Shown here in pieces: positions 1,481 through 32,821 of a stretch of 32,821 nucleotides of DNA (its first letter is position 1; each line of letters starts with the position of its first letter). Under the pieces are notes generated by a model. The model was not told the DNA's origin, ran no database searches, and was given only the letters and a program-made list of their open reading frames with translations. The stretch is from positions 1 through 32,821 of the IMG/VR virus record IMGVR_UViG_3300036715_002111; one strand, given 5' to 3'. Made by a program: the position numbers and the translations under genes. Source of the DNA: a virus.

Positions 1481-2881
1481 TCACGATTTCCTGCCCGGCC
1501 AGCGCAACACGACCTTGTTCTGGACGAAGGCGAGCGAAGCCCCTCGGTCAACAAGCTCGCGCACGACGCGGCGGTTGGGCATGGCCTGACTCTGCAACCC
1601 GATGAGGGCGCGGAATTTGCCCGCCAGCTCGGTCACGGCGTGGTCGCCCACGGTGAGCTTGTCGATGGCGCGCTCAATCTTCACCCGGTTCTTCTCTTTC
1701 GCTTGCGCCTTGCGCGGCACCAGAGCCTCGCGTTGCAGGATGTCGCTGTACGCGGCGCAGTAGGAATCGAGCGCGCAAACCTCACGCGCGTAGGCTCGCA
1801 GGCGAGGCGACCACTCCTCGTATTCCTTGGGCCACGTCGACAGGATGTGGTCGAGCATGGCGAGCTGTTCTTTCTCGTCGTTGAACAGGAACGGATACCC
1901 GTCAGGCACCAACTCGGGGAAGGTCACGGCGTTGGGCGCGACCATCAGTTGCCCGAGGGCGATGCTGTCTTGCATCGAGATGCAGAACGTCTCGTGCAGG
2001 CTGTTGATAACGTTGATGCCCGGCACGGCGATGTTCCTGATGTACTTGCGCTGGTCGGGGTCGCCGACCACCTTGTCGACTGGGAAGGACTTGATTTCCT
2101 GCCCTACGTACTGAGTGACCCAAACCTCGAATTTGTGTCCGCGCCGCTTCATCTCGGTGAGGGCGTCGGCGGTGAGCTGGGGCTGCTTGTAATTCTCGAA
2201 GCGATGATTGTAGATGACCACGGGCACGGGGTGCGGTCGGATGTCGACATCGAACAGCTTGGGGTCGACGAGGCCGAAGGGCAACACTTGCGACTTGTCG
2301 GCGATGCGTTGCAACGTCTTGCCGTTCATGAACTTCCCGAACGACTCCTCGGCCATGCGGTAACAGTGCTTCGAGTTGAACACCACGCGGTCGGCGGCGA
2401 GCGTCCCGCCCATCTGCGCCCAGAGGCGGGGCAACTGCGACTCGAACGGGTAGGGCAGCGACTCATGAATGATGTAGTGCTGTTGCGCGACGCAAGCTGG
2501 GTGAGCGTTGGTGTTGAACGAGCCAGCGTAGCCGTACTTGACTTGAAGGGCCGACTCGACTTGGTGCATCCAGTACACTGTCACGCCTTGGGCGTCGAGG
2601 AGCTTGAAGCGTTCGCTGTCCCACGTCAGGACGCTCGACCTCATGGCGGTGTCGTAGGGCCACGGGAACGGCACGATGCGGTCGGACCACAGGCCATCGT
2701 CGGCGTAACGCCACTTGTCCGCGCCCTTCGACCGTTGGGGCCACATCACGAGCCACAACCAATCGGGCATTTGCTCGCTCATCACCGGGAGGATGCGGCG
2801 CAAGTAAGCGTAGTTGGAGTCCCAGTTCATGGCGTCGCTTTGACTCCAGAACGGGAAGACGCAACACAGCTCGGCGGTCAC
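1481..2881 (-). CDS. GT-B glycosyltransferase resembling tRNA-queuosine mannosyltransferase
   Basis: The protein is 466 residues. Several motifs match the QTMAN/GTDC1 (DUF3524 plus GT4) pattern in order: IIHESLPYP around 137-144, DRVVFNS at 164-170, YNHRFENYKQP at 224-234 (compare HRWEHDK in GTDC1), SLHETFCISMQDS at 294-306 and FPELVPDGYPF at 321-331. The His-Glu pair and the C-terminal E-x7-E region are the nucleotide-sugar binding parts of retaining GT-B enzymes. The start is GTG at 2879-2881, overlapping the upstream stop (GTGA); the first strand of the Rossmann fold begins right there, which supports it. The acceptor is unknown: tRNA, a modified DNA base, or virion protein are all possible. 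No queuosine or 7-deazaguanine synthesis gene is visible here. Confidence 0.78.
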   Translation of the reverse strand: MTAELCCVFPFWSQSDAMNWDSNYAYLRRILPVMSEQMPDWLWLVMWPQRSKGADKWRYADDGLWSDRIVPFPWPYDTAMRSSVLTWDSERFKLLDAQGVTVYWMHQVESALQVKYGYAGSFNTNAHPACVAQQHYIIHESLPYPFESQLPRLWAQMGGTLAADRVVFNSKHCYRMAEESFGKFMNGKTLQRIADKSQVLPFGLVDPKLFDVDIRPHPVPVVIYNHRFENYKQPQLTADALTEMKRRGHKFEVWVTQYVGQEIKSFPVDKVVGDPDQRKYIRNIAVPGINVINSLHETFCISMQDSIALGQLMVAPNAVTFPELVPDGYPFLFNDEKEQLAMLDHILSTWPKEYEEWSPRLRAYAREVCALDSYCAAYSDILQREALVPRKAQAKEKNRVKIERAIDKLTVGDHAVTELAGKFRALIGLQSQAMPNRRVVRELVDRGASLAFVQNKVVLRWPGRKS

Positions 2882-3159
2882 AACACTTCCCCGGTATCTG
2901 GGTCGACCTCGGGGGCGTCATCCTCGGGCATCACGTAGAACTGGCCCTCAAGGGCGTCGGTCACGGCGAACACCTCGGCGCGCATCCCGAGGCCACGACA
3001 ACCTTCGTCGAACATGGCGAGCAGGGCAGTCGTCTTGTTGAACTTGACCGTCGCTGACTCGATGGCCTTCTTGTGCCGCTCAAGCTCGGCCACGAGCGTC
3101 TGGCGTACCTCCAGAAGTCGTTCCTCGGGCGTGCGGTCGAACATCTCATCTTGTTCCAC
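2878..3159 (-). CDS. Hypothetical protein, 93 residues
   Basis: I recognise no family. The N-terminal 45 residues are charged and helical, probably a short coiled coil, and the C-terminus is strongly acidic (EDDAPEVDPDTGEVL). A GGAGG site precedes the ATG. Its stop overlaps the GTG start of the glycosyltransferase gene, so the two are translationally coupled and may work together. It is the first gene after the 194-base gap holding repeated element C. Confidence 0.65.
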   Translation of the reverse strand: MEQDEMFDRTPEERLLEVRQTLVAELERHKKAIESATVKFNKTTALLAMFDEGCRGLGMRAEVFAVTDALEGQFYVMPEDDAPEVDPDTGEVL

Positions 3160-3187
3160 GGTTGCCTCCTGTCGTCAGGTGACGGAA

Positions 3188-3351
3188 CGCGCCACCGCGC
3201 CCACCACGCGATTTCCGACGCTGGACGTGCGCCAACGTATGTCCACATTGTGTTCGTCGTGGCCGTCGACCACGGGCGAAACCGTGCGCCGCCTGGACAG
3301 GCAACGGACGCGAACGGTTGTTCGTCTACATGGAACCGATGCAGCGTGCAT
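3188..3351 (-). repeat. Repeated structured element C, copy 1 (gap 3160-3353)
   Basis: The 194-base gap contains no gene. Bases 3222-3351 match 24827-24956 over 130 bases without gaps, about 80% identical by eye; a shorter copy is at 13746-13847. Read on the minus strand it holds inverted repeats: ATGCA/TGCAT (3 bases apart), CGAAC/GTTCG, GCCTG/CAGGC and GTGGTCG/CGGCCAC (one G-U pair), then a conserved block ending TGGACATACGTTGGCGCACG. Next to it, at 3188-3196, is CGCGCCACC, the first box of element M. It could be a structured leader RNA, a promoter or an operator; I do not recognise it. Confidence 0.7.
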
Positions 3352-3353
3352 AG

Positions 3354-3569
3354 TCACGAGCCTAGCGTCGCCACGAAGTACTCGATGAGTGCGTACGCGT
3401 CATCGACGGCGCGCTCAGCCTCGGCGACTTGGTCGTGCCAGTATTCGGCGTTCGCGGGATGGCGAGCCAACATCCGCTCGCGCTGTTTCCGCTCAGCCAA
3501 GGCGAATGACCGCAGGCGATAGGCCCGCTCCTCAGGGCCAGGCCCGAACAGGCGAGGATTGTCGTTCAT
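3354..3569 (-). CDS. Hypothetical protein, 71 residues
   Basis: A small charged helical protein with an arginine- and glutamate-rich middle; no recognised family. Its ATG (3567-3569) overlaps the stop of the ParB-like gene (ATGA), so it is translated as part of that unit. The 194-base gap with element C follows it, so the ParB-like unit may end here or read through into the glycosyltransferase unit. Confidence 0.62.
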   Translation of the reverse strand: MNDNPRLFGPGPEERAYRLRSFALAERKQRERMLARHPANAEYWHDQVAEAERAVDDAYALIEYFVATLGS

Positions 3570-6000: not shown

Positions 6001-6055
6001 CGACGTAGTACTCGCGTTCATGCGCGACCGCGCGCCACCGTGCGTTCTAATGCGT
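6001..6055 (-). promoter_or_regulatory. Element M, copy 1 (gap 5955-6075)
   Basis: The 121-base gap has no gene. On the minus strand it reads GCATTAGAACGC, then GGTGGCGCG (6031-6039), 17 bases, then GAGTACTACGTCG (6001-6013). The same two boxes with exactly 17 bases between them occur at 9961, 11744, 19856 and 30641. The second box here is the least conserved of the five. It ends 46 bases before a start codon, as a promoter would. Confidence 0.65.
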
Positions 6056-6075
6056 CATTCGCGCGTTGTCGCGCC

Positions 6076-9896: not shown

Positions 9897-9958
9897 CGTC
9901 ACCTCCTGTCGTGGTGCGTTCGTTGGGTCAACGGTGACGCGTTGGTCGATGCGAACGA

Positions 9959-10010
9959 ATGTAGTACATCGAAGATGCACCTCCCGCGCGCCACCGTCGT
10001 TCCAAATGCG
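9959..10010 (-). promoter_or_regulatory. Element M, copy 2 (gap 9897-10010)
   Basis: On the minus strand: degenerate GCGTT-type inverted repeat, GGTGGCGCG (9987-9995), 17 bases, then ATGTACTACAT (9959-9969), a palindrome around one base. Nineteen bases (GAACGAATGTAGTACATCG on the plus strand) are identical to 29769-29787. A later CGCGTCACCGT can pair with ACGGTGGCGCG (one G-U). Confidence 0.65.
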
Positions 10011-11564: not shown

Positions 11565-11600
11565 CGTTCCTCCAGTGTTGCGATTGCCTGTGTTGGGTTC

Positions 11601-11650
11601 ATTATCGACACCCAGGCGAGGAAGTCAATCCCTGTAAACGTTCACGCACG
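11601..11650 (-). promoter_or_regulatory. P-family promoter P3
   Basis: On the minus strand: GAACGTTTACAGG, two bases, TTGACT (11623-11628), exactly 16 bases, GATAAT (11601-11606), then the ACACAGGCAA leader. GTTGTC/GACAAC, an inverted repeat, lies 15 bases upstream of GAACG. The same layout is at P1 and P2. Confidence 0.8.
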
Positions 11651-11743
11651 CACTGTGTGTTGTCGTCTCGGACAACGCCGTGTGTAGACATCGTTCCCGT
11701 CATTTGGGACGACGGTGGCGCGTCCACCCTGCGCCCGCGACAC

Positions 11744-11792
11744 GATACATTCGCGAGTGCATGGCGACGCGCCACCGTGCGTTAGAACGCGT
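11744..11792 (-). promoter_or_regulatory. Element M, copy 3 (in gap 11565-11801)
   Basis: GCGTTCTAACGC inverted repeat, GGTGGCGCG (11768-11776), 17 bases, ATGTATC (11744-11750) on the minus strand. The arm ACGGTGGCGCG pairs perfectly with CGCGCCACCGT about 45 bases on. The 237-base gap holds only this element and promoter P3. Confidence 0.65.
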
Positions 11793-11801
11793 CGAATCAA
11801 G

Positions 11802-13138: not shown

Positions 13139-13176
13139 TGTCGTTCCTCCTGCGCGGCGTTGCCTGTGTCGGTTCG

Positions 13177-13204
13177 ATTATCGACAGCCCGATGCGGGAG
13201 TCAA
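13177..13204 (-). promoter_or_regulatory. P-family promoter P4
   Basis: TTGACT (13199-13204), exactly 16 bases, GATAAT (13177-13182), then GACACAGGCAA on the minus strand. The upstream GAACGTT box and inverted repeat of P1-P3 are not kept here. Confidence 0.75.
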
Positions 13205-13247
13205 ACGCTGTCAAAGCTTGAGGCGTATGCCATATGGACAACGAAGT

Positions 13248-13745: not shown

Positions 13746-13847
13746 CCAGACACGCGCCAACGTGTGTCCATATGCGACGTGTCGTGGCCGTCAATCCGTG
13801 CGCCGCCTGGGCAGGCAACATGCGAACATAGGTGCGCCTTGCATGGA
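13746..13847 (-). repeat. Repeated element C, shorter copy 2 (gap 13628-13868)
   Basis: The 241-base gap has no gene. Bases 13746-13847 share with the other copies GGCGGCGCACGG, GGCCACGACAC and ATATGGACACACGTTGGCGCG (minus strand), and the GCCTG/CAGGC hairpin of copy 1. The 5' stem (ATGCA/TGCAT) is missing, so it is partial or diverged. Confidence 0.55.
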
Positions 13848-13868
13848 CCTGACACAGTTTGCACCGCG

Positions 13869-14003
13869 TCAATCCGCGTCGTGGTCGCGTCCGTTCCACC
13901 GTCGCTCGGCGTCGTTCTCGCAAAGGGTCGACATGCGGCAAAGCGCGGCCCCAAAGACGAGGACGGCGGCGAAAACGACGGCGACGAAGGCGAGTAAGAA
14001 CAT
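13869..14003 (-). CDS. 44-residue membrane protein overlapping the endolysin
   Basis: The ATG at 14001-14003 overlaps the endolysin stop by one base (TGATG). The protein is one strong transmembrane helix (MFLLAFVAVVFAAVLVFGAAL) followed by a charged tail (CENDAERRWNGRDHDAD). This is a pattern of small pinholin/holin or lysis-accessory proteins. With the XhlA-like protein upstream, the cassette would be membrane protein, endolysin, membrane protein. The role is inferred from position and topology. Confidence 0.6.
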   Translation of the reverse strand: MFLLAFVAVVFAAVLVFGAALCRMSTLCENDAERRWNGRDHDAD

Positions 14004-14623
14004 CACGGCTGAGGCGGGCGAATGACCATATGCACCTGCGCCACCGTTCGCAGGTGAGTCCTCACGCCATCTTCGGTGTTACCTTCGATGGTCGGCAAGG
14101 TGCCGCCCTCCCACGCACCTCGGGCGAGGCCGATGTGGTCGCCTTGCGGGTCGCTGTCGAACTGGAATGTCACGATGTCGCCGCGACGCACGTCCGCCTT
14201 GGGCACGACAAGGCCCTTGGCTCGCGCCATGTCCTCCCACGAAGGCACGTAGCCTTTATCCGTCGGCCATGGCCCCGCGTACTTCATCTCATGCAGCCAC
14301 AGGCTGACCATCGCGGCACACCAAGGTTCCCCGGATTTCAGCCCGCAGAACTTGAGCGCTTCATCGATACGCGGCCCTGAATTCGAGCCTAGAGGCTCCT
14401 CGGTCACGCCAACGTCTTTGAGCGCGTGCTCGACGAGGCGTTCCCGCCATTCTTTTTGAGGCGGTTCGCTCGCGGCGAGGCGGCGCAGGAGAGTCTTCGC
14501 GGCCTCCCCCAACACGGGCGACGTGGGGATGAACCCGCTCGGGATATCGACGTTGCGGCCCTTGGCGATGCGGTGAGCAACTTTCTTGAGGGCGATGATG
14601 TCTTTGCCTTCGGGATGTTCCAT
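14003..14623 (-). CDS. Endolysin with CHAP-type amidase/peptidase domain
   Basis: The protein is 206 residues. The catalytic domain is C-terminal: Cys102 in EPWCAAMVSLWL, His163 in GDHIGLA, and Glu180/Asn182 in TIEGN, as in CHAP-type cysteine enzymes that cut peptidoglycan. The N-terminal 50 residues are helical (ALKKVAHRIAKGRN) and may bind the wall or a partner. GAGGAGG lies 6 bases before the ATG. No signal peptide, so a holin would be needed. The next gene overlaps by TGATG. Confidence 0.85.
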   Translation of the reverse strand: MEHPEGKDIIALKKVAHRIAKGRNVDIPSGFIPTSPVLGEAAKTLLRRLAASEPPQKEWRERLVEHALKDVGVTEEPLGSNSGPRIDEALKFCGLKSGEPWCAAMVSLWLHEMKYAGPWPTDKGYVPSWEDMARAKGLVVPKADVRRGDIVTFQFDSDPQGDHIGLARGAWEGGTLPTIEGNTEDGVRTHLRTVAQVHMVIRPPQP

Positions 14624-19855: not shown

Positions 19856-19903
19856 TTACATGCGCGAAGGCGTCGCGTCGCGCCACCGCGCGTTCTAACG
19901 CGT
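19856..19903 (-). promoter_or_regulatory. Element M, copy 4 (gap 19802-19913)
   Basis: GCGTTAGAACGC inverted repeat, GGTGGCGCG (19879-19887), 17 bases, ATGTAA (19856-19861) on the minus strand. Here CGCCTTCG/CGAAGGCG also makes an 8-base stem around the second box. It ends 55 bases before the distal tail start. The gap holds nothing else. Confidence 0.65.
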
Positions 19904-19913
19904 GTCAGTGTCG

Positions 19914-22052: not shown

Positions 22053-22077
22053 GCCTGCACCTCGATGCGCGTCAGAC

Positions 22078-22101
22078 GCGTTCTAACGCGCGTGGACGCG
22101 A
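22078..22101 (-). promoter_or_regulatory. Partial element M before tape measure gene
   Basis: The perfect inverted repeat GCGTT-AG-AACGC (22078-22089) with CGTCCACGCG next to it is also found at 29733-29752. It lies 26 bases before the tape measure start. The GGTGGCGCG and ATGTA boxes are absent. Confidence 0.4.
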
Positions 22102-22128
22102 CGCGCGCCTGTTCTGCAACATATCCCT

Positions 22129-23948: not shown

Positions 23949-24385
23949 TCCGCGCCCCCCTTCGTCGCGCGCAACTGTTCGAGACGTTTCTGCAAGGAGT
24001 ACGCCACGGCGGCGCGGGCCTTGCCCACGTTCTCGTCGAACGCTGGCCTGAGCCAAGGTCGCGCGCCCATGCGCGACGTGCCGAACTCTTGGTAGACGCC
24101 GTACTCGACGGGCGTGCCGATGTCGACGCTCACCTGTGTCTTGCCGCCTTGCCCGCCCGTGGTGTATTCGGGGGGCCACGACTGCACCGAGTTCAACAGG
24201 TTTCCTGTGTCGATGATGTCCTTCTCTCGGATAATCTGTTTCGCCGCGCCTACGATGACCTGAGCGCCGAGTTGCAACCCCTCAGCCACGGCCTTTGAGG
24301 CGTCGTCGCCCGCGCGCTCAAGCTTGCGGCGCAATTCGTTGACGCCGACGACTTGCTCACGCACCGGGGTCCCTGATTTCGCCAT
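23945..24385 (-). CDS. HK97 gp10-like neck protein
   Basis: The 146-residue protein has the gp10-like pattern: GVNELRRKLERAGDDASKAV, TGNLLNSVQS, VEYGVYQEFGTSRMGARPWLRPAFD. These proteins join head and tail. The ATG at 24383-24385 overlaps the upstream stop (TGATG), with GGAGG 4 bases before. The order connector, closure, gp10, terminator, tube is standard. Confidence 0.85.
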   Translation of the reverse strand: MAKSGTPVREQVVGVNELRRKLERAGDDASKAVAEGLQLGAQVIVGAAKQIIREKDIIDTGNLLNSVQSWPPEYTTGGQGGKTQVSVDIGTPVEYGVYQEFGTSRMGARPWLRPAFDENVGKARAAVAYSLQKRLEQLRATKGGAE

Positions 24386-24771
24386 CACGCCTCCACTCGG
24401 TTGAGCGGCACGACGAGGCCCGAGGGACCGCGCGCAGGCTCGCCCGCGACATCCCACTCTTCTTCGGGGTTGAGTGCGACGCCGAGGCGGTGGGTGAGTT
24501 TCACGCGGTCGGTGGCGTCGATTGCCGTGCCGAGGGGGAGGCGCAAAGAAGCGTCGCTGAAGACGGGCGAGCCGTCAGTACGCTCGGAGACTTTGCTGCC
24601 CTTGGGCGAGAACCCGCAGGCGACGCCCGCGCCGTAGCTGAAGCTCGCGCTGACGTGGCCCGAGGGCGACTGAGATTCGGTTTTGGTGCCGAGTTGGCAG
24701 GTGTCCATCATGTGGTCTTCCTGCGCAGTTCTCATGCTTGCCAACTCGTCCGAGGTGAACGCTTTGCTCAT
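24385..24771 (-). CDS. Head closure/head-tail joining protein
   Basis: The 128-residue protein (DTCQLGTKTESQSPSGHVSASFSYG, ATDRVKLTHRLGVALNPEEEWDVAG) has the small beta-barrel pattern of head closure proteins that sit below the connector. AGGAGG lies 7 bases before ATG 24769-24771. It follows the element C gap, so it may start a transcription unit. Confidence 0.72.
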   Translation of the reverse strand: MSKAFTSDELASMRTAQEDHMMDTCQLGTKTESQSPSGHVSASFSYGAGVACGFSPKGSKVSERTDGSPVFSDASLRLPLGTAIDATDRVKLTHRLGVALNPEEEWDVAGEPARGPSGLVVPLNRVEA

Positions 24772-24792
24772 CCGTGCGCCTCCTCGTCAAAA

Positions 24793-24956
24793 CGCGCCAC
24801 CGCGCGTTGGAACGACGGTGACGCGTTGGACGTGCGCCAATGTGTGTCCATATTGCGCGTGTCGTGGTCGTCGACCACCGTTGAAACCGTGCGCCGCCTT
24901 CCGAGACAACGGACGCGAACACGGGTTCGCTTTCATAGAACCGATGCAACGTGCAT
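24793..24956 (-). repeat. Repeated structured element C, copy 3 (gap 24772-24964)
   Basis: The 193-base gap has no gene. Bases 24827-24956 align without gaps to 3222-3351. Inverted repeats on the minus strand: ATGCA/TGCAT, GCGAAC/GTTCGC (loop CCGT), GTGGTCG/CGACCAC. One stem position differs from copy 1 but still pairs (G-U to A-U). After it at 24793-24815 is a partial element M (GGTGGCGCG plus GTTGGAAC repeat). It lies just before the connector genes. Confidence 0.7.
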
Positions 24957-24964
24957 AGGTCATC

Positions 24965-25384
24965 TCAGGGCACCGGGCCGATGTCCTCGGTCGACGTGTC
25001 CTCGTCGTCATCCTCGTCGACGCGCAGCACGTAAGGACGACTCGACTGAAACGTGACGCTCGTGACGGCGCGGCGCGAGCGGTAACGACTCGACAGCCTG
25101 GACCAGTGCTCGAATTCCTGCGAACGAGTGTAACTCCCCCCGTCAGCGCTGAAGTCGAAATTGCCCGAGAGGGCAGCGGCCTTCTCCTCGCAAATGTCCG
25201 ACGCGGCGAGGTACGTGTCGTAGGTCGGACTCCAGAGATTGTCGTCAGGCTCGTAGCCGTTCTCGTCCATAAGCGGGCGTCGCTCGATGTACTCGGCCAC
25301 CACCTTGTCGGTGTAAGTCGTGTCTCCCGCGTCGATGGAGCAAAGCCGCTTGACGCGCGCGACCTGTTCATCCGATGCACTCAT
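24965..25384 (-). CDS. Head-tail connector protein
   Basis: The 139-residue protein (ARVKRLCSID, YTDKVVAEYIERRPLMDENGYEPDD, YDTYLAASDICEEKAAAL) matches phage connectors of the gp6/gp15 type that extend the portal. It is helical with a strongly acidic C-terminal tail (DEDDDEDTSTED). GGAGG lies 6 bases before the ATG. It follows the hairpin region after the capsid gene. Confidence 0.75.
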   Translation of the reverse strand: MSASDEQVARVKRLCSIDAGDTTYTDKVVAEYIERRPLMDENGYEPDDNLWSPTYDTYLAASDICEEKAAALSGNFDFSADGGSYTRSQEFEHWSRLSSRYRSRRAVTSVTFQSSRPYVLRVDEDDDEDTSTEDIGPVP

Positions 25385-29694: not shown

Positions 29695-29724
29695 AGTTTG
29701 CATCTCGGCGCGTCGTCGCGTCAA
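29695..29724 (-). promoter_or_regulatory. Promoter of the portal gene, probably leaderless
   Basis: TTGACG (29719-29724), 18 bases, CAAACT (29695-29700) on the minus strand. The portal ATG starts 8 bases after the end of the -10. TGCAAACTGTG also occurs at 13854-13864 but without a -35 at that spacing. Confidence 0.5.
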
Positions 29725-29732
29725 GCGGTGAC

Positions 29733-29787
29733 GCGTTCTAACGCGCGTGGACGCGACGGCCATACGTGAACGAATGTAGTACATCGC
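29733..29787 (-). promoter_or_regulatory. Partial element M (in gap 29688-29917)
   Basis: The GCGTTAGAACGC repeat (29733-29744) and the palindrome ATGTACTACAT (29774-29784) are present, but in the reverse order to the five full copies and without GGTGGCGCG. The rest of the 230-base gap is the terminator at 29870 and the portal promoter. Confidence 0.45.
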
Positions 29788-30460: not shown

Positions 30461-30495
30461 GTCGTCCTCCGGTTCGGATTGCCTGTGTCGCGTAC

Positions 30496-30545
30496 ATCAT
30501 CGACAAACCACCGGAGAAGTCAATACCTGTGAACGTTCACGCACG
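30496..30545 (-). promoter_or_regulatory. P-family promoter P2
   Basis: GAACGTTCACAGG, two bases, TTGACT (30518-30523), exactly 16 bases, GATGAT (30496-30501), then the GACACAGGCAA leader on the minus strand. TGAACGTTCA here is a perfect palindrome. A GACAAC box is 15 bases further upstream. Confidence 0.8.
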
Positions 30546-30640
30546 AGCGGGTCGTTGTCGATGCAGGCGACGCCGTGCGTGGGCGTCGTCACCGCGACGT
30601 GGGCGCACGGTGGCGCGTTGGCCATACGCTTGCGACGTGG

Positions 30641-30687
30641 TACATGCGTGAGCCTGTCGCGTCGCGCCACCGTGCGTTGGAACGCGT
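30641..30687 (-). promoter_or_regulatory. Element M, copy 5 (in gap 30461-30693)
   Basis: GCGTTCCAACGC repeat, GGTGGCGCG (30663-30671), 17 bases, ATGTACC (30641-30645 region) on the minus strand. GCACGGTGGCGCG pairs perfectly with CGCGCCACCGTGC (13 bases) about 55 bases on. The gap has only this and P2. Confidence 0.65.
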
Positions 30688-30693
30688 CCTTTT

Positions 30694-31658: not shown

Positions 31659-31691
31659 GTCGTTCCTCCGGTCGTTGCCTGTGTCACTTAC

Positions 31692-31740
31692 ATCATCGAC
31701 AGAAACCGGTGGGAGTCAACTCCTGTAAACGTTCAAGCGC
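31692..31740 (-). promoter_or_regulatory. P-family promoter P1
   Basis: GAACGTTTACAGG, two bases, TTGACT (31714-31719), exactly 16 bases, GATGAT (31692-31697), then GACACAGGCAA on the minus strand. Fifteen bases upstream is the hairpin at 31748-31769. Confidence 0.82.
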
Positions 31741-31747
31741 CAGCGAT

Positions 31748-31769
31748 GCGTTGTCGCACCCGACAACGC
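31748..31769 (-). promoter_or_regulatory. Hairpin after terminase gene
   Basis: GCGTTGTCG and CGACAACGC form a perfect 9-base stem with 4-base loop, 3 bases after the terminase stop. The GTTGTC/GACAAC core is also found 15 bases upstream of the GAACG box of P3, so it may be an operator and not just a terminator; no T-run follows. Confidence 0.55.
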
Positions 31770-31771
31770 GG

Positions 31772-32821
31772 TCAGCCTGTACGCGACGCCGCGACCTTGC
31801 GCCCGCGCTTTCCGATGAGGAGGAAAGTGAAACCCCAGACGAGCGCGTCAACGCGGTCGGGCGAGCCGAAGGCCTTGCGGTCGAGGTCGGGCGTGAAGTT
31901 GCACATCTGGTCTTCCAAGGGACCAAAGAGTCCGACGTGATGCACGCGGCCTTGTTCGTACAGGGCGGCGACGGGTTCGGCACGAACCCACTTGCCGCGC
32001 GACGCGACGACCTTGCGGTAAGAGATGTTCGGGTCGACCGTGCGGATGGTGTGCTCAACCAAGTCGCCGCCGTTATTCACCTCAGCCACCACGCGGTCAG
32101 CTCCCCAACGGTGGTACGCCTCGACTGCGATACGCGCCCACCGGTCGGGCGTGTAGCGCCCGCTCAAGTCTTCGAGGACGTAGCCATGAGGCGGTGTCGC
32201 GTCGTCACACCCGACCACGACGATGCCAGTTTCGTCGCTCGCTTCACCGCTGGTCACTGCGGGGTCGACGGCGACGGCGATGCTGGTCAACGACGTGCGC
32301 ACGTTGTCGCTCTCGGCGGCGGCGAGGCGCGACGTGTCGAGCATCGCTCGGTTCCACAGCGCGCCGATGATGTCCTCGATGATTTCGCCGTAGATTTCCT
32401 GTCGCCCGAGGTGCGTGCCCGCGTAGGTGCCCACCACGTCGTCGATGAACTGATGGGCGAGGAACGCCACGTTGGCGTAGGTTGAAGCAACCGTCGTCAC
32501 CGTCGTAGGCGACTCGGCGATGCGTCGCACGAGGCGCGTCGGGCGGGGCGTCGTCGTCACGATGGCGCGAGGGTCACGCCCAAGGCGCAGGCCGAGGAGC
32601 ATCATGTCCCACGTCTCGGGGTGCCGCCACGAGGCAAGCTCGTCGCACCACGCCGCGTCGTGCTGAGGCCCGCGCAAGCGGTCGGGTTCCTCGCCTGAGT
32701 AGAGGAAGGCCCGCGCCCCGTTGGGCCACTCGACGCGACGCTTGGACGAGATGTAGCTGGGCCTGAAGTCGTGACGTGCGGTGGCGAGGATGCCACTCTC
32801 ACCTTCAACGATGACATCCCG
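31772..32821 (-). CDS. terL: Terminase large subunit, C-terminal part (begins at the left end)
   Basis: This part gives residues about 98 to 446 of the packaging enzyme; its first 127 bases repeat the left end. The Walker B-like AAWCDE is followed by the nuclease domain: AVAVDPAVTSG with Asp283, VVAEVNNGGD with Glu344 and SPDRVDALVWG with Asp422, the three acidic sites of an RNase H-like fold. It cuts the DNA concatemer at the start and end of packaging. The protein ends in a basic tail (GKRGRKVAASRTG). Promoter P1 and a hairpin follow the stop. Confidence 0.93.
   Translation of the reverse strand, partial: RDVIVEGESGILATARHDFRPSYISSKRRVEWPNGARAFLYSGEEPDRLRGPQHDAAWCDELASWRHPETWDMMLLGLRLGRDPRAIVTTTPRPTRLVRRIAESPTTVTTVASTYANVAFLAHQFIDDVVGTYAGTHLGRQEIYGEIIEDIIGALWNRAMLDTSRLAAAESDNVRTSLTSIAVAVDPAVTSGEASDETGIVVVGCDDATPPHGYVLEDLSGRYTPDRWARIAVEAYHRWGADRVVAEVNNGGDLVEHTIRTVDPNISYRKVVASRGKWVRAEPVAALYEQGRVHHVGLFGPLEDQMCNFTPDLDRKAFGSPDRVDALVWGFTFLLIGKRGRKVAASRTG
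32695..32821. repeat. Terminal direct repeat, right copy
   Basis: Identical to 1-127. Evidence that the genome is circular or circularly permuted in this assembly, of about 32,694 bp. Confidence 0.95.

Follow-up and report, generated by a model that had tools for sequence, protein, structure and literature searches.

Three kinds of phage element described in the literature, put, ESAS and stoperators, are the nearest found to the one analyzed here, which is termed element C. The put RNA of HK022 (putL and putR) is phage-encoded and has RNA polymerase as its target (PMC9378689). It is about 70 nt in length and consists of two stem-loops within the leader RNA downstream of early promoters; it binds to the polymerase at the zinc-binding domain, and both pausing and termination are suppressed (PMC9378689). 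In cluster K mycobacteriophages, the extended start-associated sequences (ESAS) couple a 17-base inverted repeat with a 13-base start-codon sequence, the latter being present in 11-19 copies per genome (PMC3203893). In cluster A, stoperators are 13-base asymmetric repressor sites that are present in many copies (PMC6550527, PMC9283540).

Element C occurs in three copies in the window, that is, the whole stretch of DNA analyzed, an IMG/VR virus record of 32,821 bases. As with put, more than one similar structured copy is present in a single phage, the copies are non-coding, and they are proposed to be read as RNA with the same direction as the genes; element C differs from put in its length of about 130 nt, its four or five small hairpins, its location behind stop codons and its lack of a recognizable promoter. 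It resembles ESAS as a repeated, conserved gap element with inverted repeats and an actinobacteriophage connection, but it is found after stop codons and in three copies, and the cluster K 13-mer GGGATAGGAGCCC was absent from the window when up to 2 mismatches were allowed. Dispersed sites with a single orientation relative to transcription recall the stoperators; in comparison, element C is ten times longer, has three copies, and contains longer tracts without close recurrence. An intrinsic terminator combines a G+C-rich hairpin with a T run behind it on the transcribed strand. The hairpins of element C are likewise located behind stop codons, but without a minus-strand T run. Since the defining feature tested was not found for put, ESAS or stoperators, element C was filed under none of them and is regarded as a new family among the lineage-specific, repeated, conserved gap elements of phages. 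No description of the proposed gene-joint device of this lineage was found.

Genome organization and placement of element C

The two ends of the window consist of an identical stretch of 127 bases, which indicates that the DNA is circular or permuted. The record begins and ends at arbitrary points inside the large terminase gene, which is thereby divided into 1-380 and 31772-32677 (minus strand) and whose reading continues across the junction. The shared ends and this reading over the junction show the assembled genome to be circular and complete. Every gene called in the window is on the minus strand, and any RNA would therefore read as the reverse complement of the strand given. The gene products include portal, head, tape-measure, endolysin, replication and Erf-like annealing proteins. 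Distant matches for the portal and capsid proteins were mainly from phages of Actinobacteria, with some from Firmicutes, and a tRNA/tmRNA search returned none. It should be noted that a gene-free length of 130 bases is rarely spared by compact phages.

Copy 1 (24827-24956, minus strand) extends over 130 bases from the start of hairpin P1 to the end of hairpin P5, within a gap at 24772-24964 flanked by genes 24965-25384 and 24385-24771. Copy 2 (3222-3351, minus strand, 130 bases) is located in a gap at 3160-3353 flanked by genes 3354-3569 and 2878-3159. An ungapped alignment of these two copies over 130 bases at about 80%, as given in a preliminary description of this DNA, was reproduced with a core identity of 107/134 (80%); the repeat call made by program, family D8, spans 135 bases at 81%. 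The third, shorter version reported there is also real, but its extent, given as 13746-13847, needs a small correction to about 13747-13864 (minus strand, 118 bases). This copy 3 is 12 bases shorter overall through indels of +1, -2 and -11, and its identity to the other two window copies is 73-74%. The gene-free gaps, for which about 190-240 bases had been stated, measure 194, 193 and about 240 bases. An unfiltered covariance search with a model built partly from these same copies returned them with E-values of 4e-46, 2.5e-44 and 1.5e-28, and no further copy in the window was obtained below E 0.1.

In gene direction, all three copies start within 2-13 bases of the preceding stop codon and end some 55 to 120 bases ahead of the next start codon, before the next ribosome-binding site. 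The genes that follow the three copies are mutually unrelated. The 3' tail of copy 1 (24793-24826, minus strand) contains a core, CGGTGGCGCG, that is common to intergenic repeat family B; the same core is present in the tail of copy 2 with a different lead-in. Copy 3 is placed behind a small membrane-protein-like frame, which itself follows the endolysin gene (14003-14623). This frame (13871-14004, minus strand; MFLLAFVAVVFAAVLVFGAALCRMSTL...) overlaps the endolysin stop and has the look of a one-helix membrane protein, perhaps a holin. No sigma-70-type promoter was detected in the 600 bases round any copy, and no minus-strand stem with a T run, as in an intrinsic terminator, in any of the three regions. 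One terminator-type site was observed on the plus strand within the element, at 3222-3245.

Conservation in related viruses

Element C was found in two further IMG/VR contigs, L089 and L008, in both at the position matching copy 1. A query made from the three window copies only (nhmmer) recovered them with E-values of 3.5e-42 (L089) and 1.2e-34 (L008). The protein encoded after the element is 90% (L089) and 70% (L008) identical to that of the window, and the capsid protein of L008 is 74% identical. When copy 1 and its surroundings are compared with L008 at the DNA level, the gap is 83% identical, against 67% and 72% for the flanking genes, in which 50% and 44% of the four-fold degenerate sites differ. 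Because a non-coding gap is here changing more slowly than the adjoining coding sequence, element C is judged from these comparisons to be under selection and very probably does something. Copy 1 is 80% identical to its sister copy 2 and 84% identical to the matching copy of L008. Since copy 2 is nearly as close as the L008 match, it too has been kept over that time. Searches with the genes adjoining copies 2 and 3 gave no close relatives, and these two copies are therefore without matching copies for comparison. An element that is kept more strictly than the surrounding capsid-region genes, in three places, suggests that this lineage controls its gene joints.

The covariance search across phages that had been proposed was run and returned the element in two close relatives only. 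The covariance model, run over whole contigs, found no element C in 30 relatives that have a similar capsid gene but are more distant, and in several of them the two matching genes are separated by another open frame or by no gap at all. Against Rfam, the window gave no match at the curated threshold and chance-level matches only at a relaxed one, and a DNA search of named phages with the element gave short chance matches only. Pattern scans of viral contig DNA yielded just the two relatives, besides a frame in contig L090 and 17-base core matches with weak scores. The L090 frame, HNH-endonuclease-like, shares the core GTTGTCT..AGGCGGCGCACGG, which was taken as chance. One scan of bacterial genomes gave a single match in a Gemmatimonadetes assembly, at chance level. 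As a separate observation on gene order, the connector gene of the window directly follows the capsid gene, and in L089 two extra genes (1-1135), glycosyltransferase-like and methyltransferase-like by look, are located upstream of it.

Hairpins and folding

Five hairpins were delineated, for which coordinates in copy 1 are given. P1 (24944-24956, minus strand; ATGCA-CGT-TGCAT) is paired in 5/5 sequences, three pairs being made via G-U. P2 (24915-24930, minus strand; GCGAAC-CCGT-GTTCGC) has a loop in which 4/4 bases are variable. P3 (24892-24911, minus strand; CGTTGTCT-CGGA-AGGCGGCG) contains 8 pairs, two of them invariant G-U; its loop is variable, and its arms, which read CGTTGYCT/AGGCGGCG across sequences, pair in all five on the minus strand. 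It is followed by a conserved run, CACGGTTTC, that is partly missing in copy 3. In P4 (24864-24878, minus strand; GTGGTC-GAC-GACCAC), one pair is seen as T-A, T-G and C-G. Copy 3 has lost the 5' arm of P4, and the 3' arm with its neighbours, CGGCCACGAC, is unchanged. Being kept there without a pairing partner, this stretch is conserved for its sequence. P5 (24827-24850; TGGACGTGCG-CCAA-TGTGTGTCCA) is a plus-strand hairpin of 10 pairs, consistent on that strand via G-U. Eight consecutive plus-strand pairs of P5 are consistent in all five sequences, four of them varied; among 2000 column shuffles, its score was reached by six and its length by none. A minus-strand reading of these columns yields A-C mismatches.

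The arms previously named, namely ATGCA/TGCAT, CGAAC/GTTCG and GTGGTC/GRCCAC with one G-U pair, are all present, and the claim that differences are found mainly in loops holds for four hairpins. In P1-P4, 13/14 loop columns and 10/50 arm columns are variable (Fisher p 1e-6), a contrast that is partly built in, as the stems chosen were those common to all copies. When three hairpins were taken from the strict pairing of a single sequence, 9/10 loop columns were variable versus 9/34 arm columns (p 5e-4). The contrast between arms and loops gives real support to the view that the arms would matter. It had been suggested that selection acts on RNA shape or on protein sites. Selection itself is borne out, with a gap more conserved than its flanking genes and with arms kept as loops vary; as regards RNA shape, the kept arms speak in favor, but covariation, folding energy and the strand of the wobble pairs give no backing. 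In the covariation check proposed with that suggestion, nothing rose above shuffles on either strand (250/500 and 220/500), with the little power that five sequences afford. Minimum free energies were ordinary, with z between -2.0 and +0.9 for the minus strand and between -1.9 and +0.6 for the plus strand. The wobble pairs of P1 and P4 favor the minus strand and those of P5 the plus strand, a disagreement to be expected with palindromes that matter on DNA or with some hairpins arising by chance. A plus-strand consensus fold displayed three double-change pairs, but in helices with broken cells, and was rejected. Long invariant tracts were located outside the stems.

Proposed mode of action and alternative explanations

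Element C is interpreted, tentatively and with less than even confidence, as a conserved non-coding control element at the gene joints of one-directional operons that would work via the transcript. It would be copied into the minus-strand messenger RNA, in which the working form may consist of the four or five small hairpins together with the conserved linkers CGCACGGTTTC, CCACGAC and ATnTGGAC. The transcript could act in a general manner on the passing RNA polymerase, by anti-pausing or attenuation, or it could instead mark the messenger for cutting or protection between genes. The predicted outcome is unequal expression of the genes before and after the joint. Since the three following genes are unrelated, a general device is indicated and a gene-specific switch is unlikely. 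It is considered very improbable that the three copies, set over early and late operons in a phage with actinobacteriophage-like genes, encode a put-like RNA of a non-lambdoid phage, without sequence relationship to put, that acts alone on RNA polymerase as it passes.

For a lineage-specific element at operon joints, action in messenger RNA has to be weighed against a protein-binding site in DNA, and the former is favored as somewhat more likely. A row of differing hairpins with conserved linkers is more natural for RNA, which tips the balance towards action at the level of the transcript; the dissimilar arms would fit poorly with repeated sites for a single DNA-binding protein. The disagreement between strands and the lone P4 arm of copy 3, in turn, render the DNA-binding reading nearly as likely. 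Taken by itself that reading has a substantial minority chance: a phage regulator or a host protein would bind the inverted repeats and invariant tracts as a cluster of sites on double-stranded DNA. Such binding may, with a similarly limited chance, control transcription across the gene joint, for example as an operator or a repressor-dependent stop site. It is consistent with a wobble pattern indifferent to strand, with a CGGCCACGAC stretch that persists without its partner, and with invariant tracts outside stems, and other repeated gap elements of this genome carry palindromes beside TTGACT...GATAAT promoters. However, the inverted repeats of element C are dissimilar and its longer tracts have no close recurrence outside the copies, so that no common half-site is visible, and no sigma-70-type promoter was detected in or beside the copies. 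As RNA, element C would add to the cases in which a phage exerts control without a protein; as DNA, it would point to an undescribed regulator. Its three-copy design means that the copies can easily be tested singly.

The similarity of the copies might also be attributed to a spreading or recombining repeat, either a small mobile element or a recombination linker at gene joints that the Erf-type annealing protein of the phage would use, in which gene conversion and not function keeps the copies alike. Similar copies dispersed at gene joints, an Erf-like protein encoded by the genome, and a 3' tail in L008 that is closer to window copy 2 than to its own counterpart, as conversion or tail exchange would produce, fit this explanation. 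It is nevertheless considered unlikely, as terminal repeats and target duplications were not seen, the site of copy 1 is constant in three phages, and the copies are old and unhomogenised, with sister copies differing about as much as those matched between separate phages. Coding was tested because a minus-strand frame of 58 codons (MTYARCIGSMKANPCSRPLSRKAAHGF...) is open in copy 1 and its two counterparts in L089 and L008, running from an ATG behind the upstream stop to a TGA before the next ribosome-binding site. Its equal length in all three matching copies, and the comparison of copy 1 with L089, where 6/12 differences are in third positions and the aligned core gives a pN/pS of 0.25, would suit a small protein gene whose other copies have decayed. 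In the comparison with L008, however, the three codon positions contribute evenly to the differences (13, 11, 15) and pN/pS is 0.74. Moreover, in copy 2 the aligned frame meets a TAG after eight codons, and copy 3 contains frameshifts, both copies being conserved all the same, and neither a Pfam match nor a clear ribosome-binding site was found for the frame. A plus-strand frame was best in a substitution-placement test, but it displayed no third-position excess and had no match among phages. A small protein gene is thus held to be quite improbable, and coding potential over the six frames is unlikely and not supported overall.

Other repeats in the genome

Additional repeats were observed in the gaps of the genome. 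Four promoter-like units are located on the minus strand at 11584-11681, 13160-13214, 30479-30576 and 31675-31772, and another at 390-460 of L008. Each consists of TTGACT, 16-17 bases, GATAAT or GATGAT, and then ACACAGGCAA. A palindrome-like sequence, TGAACGTTYACA, is found directly upstream in three of the four, and the units probably form one co-regulated promoter set with an operator. A second family of gap repeats, CGCGTTNNAACGCRCGGTGGCGCG, is present at 6023-6057, 9921-10005, 11713-11794, 19871-19905, 22075-22105, 29714-29748 and 30608-30689. It often has an inverted arm, CGCGCCACCG, about 50 bases off, round an ATGTAC-like center, and often occurs immediately after stop codons; its CGGTGGCGCG core also ends element C. 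Furthermore, L008 contains about 18 degenerate 20-base units (ACGAGATTCCCGTTG...) at 3-358, just upstream of its promoter-like unit at 390-460. In the window, the end of the terminase gene is located directly before the corresponding promoter (31772).
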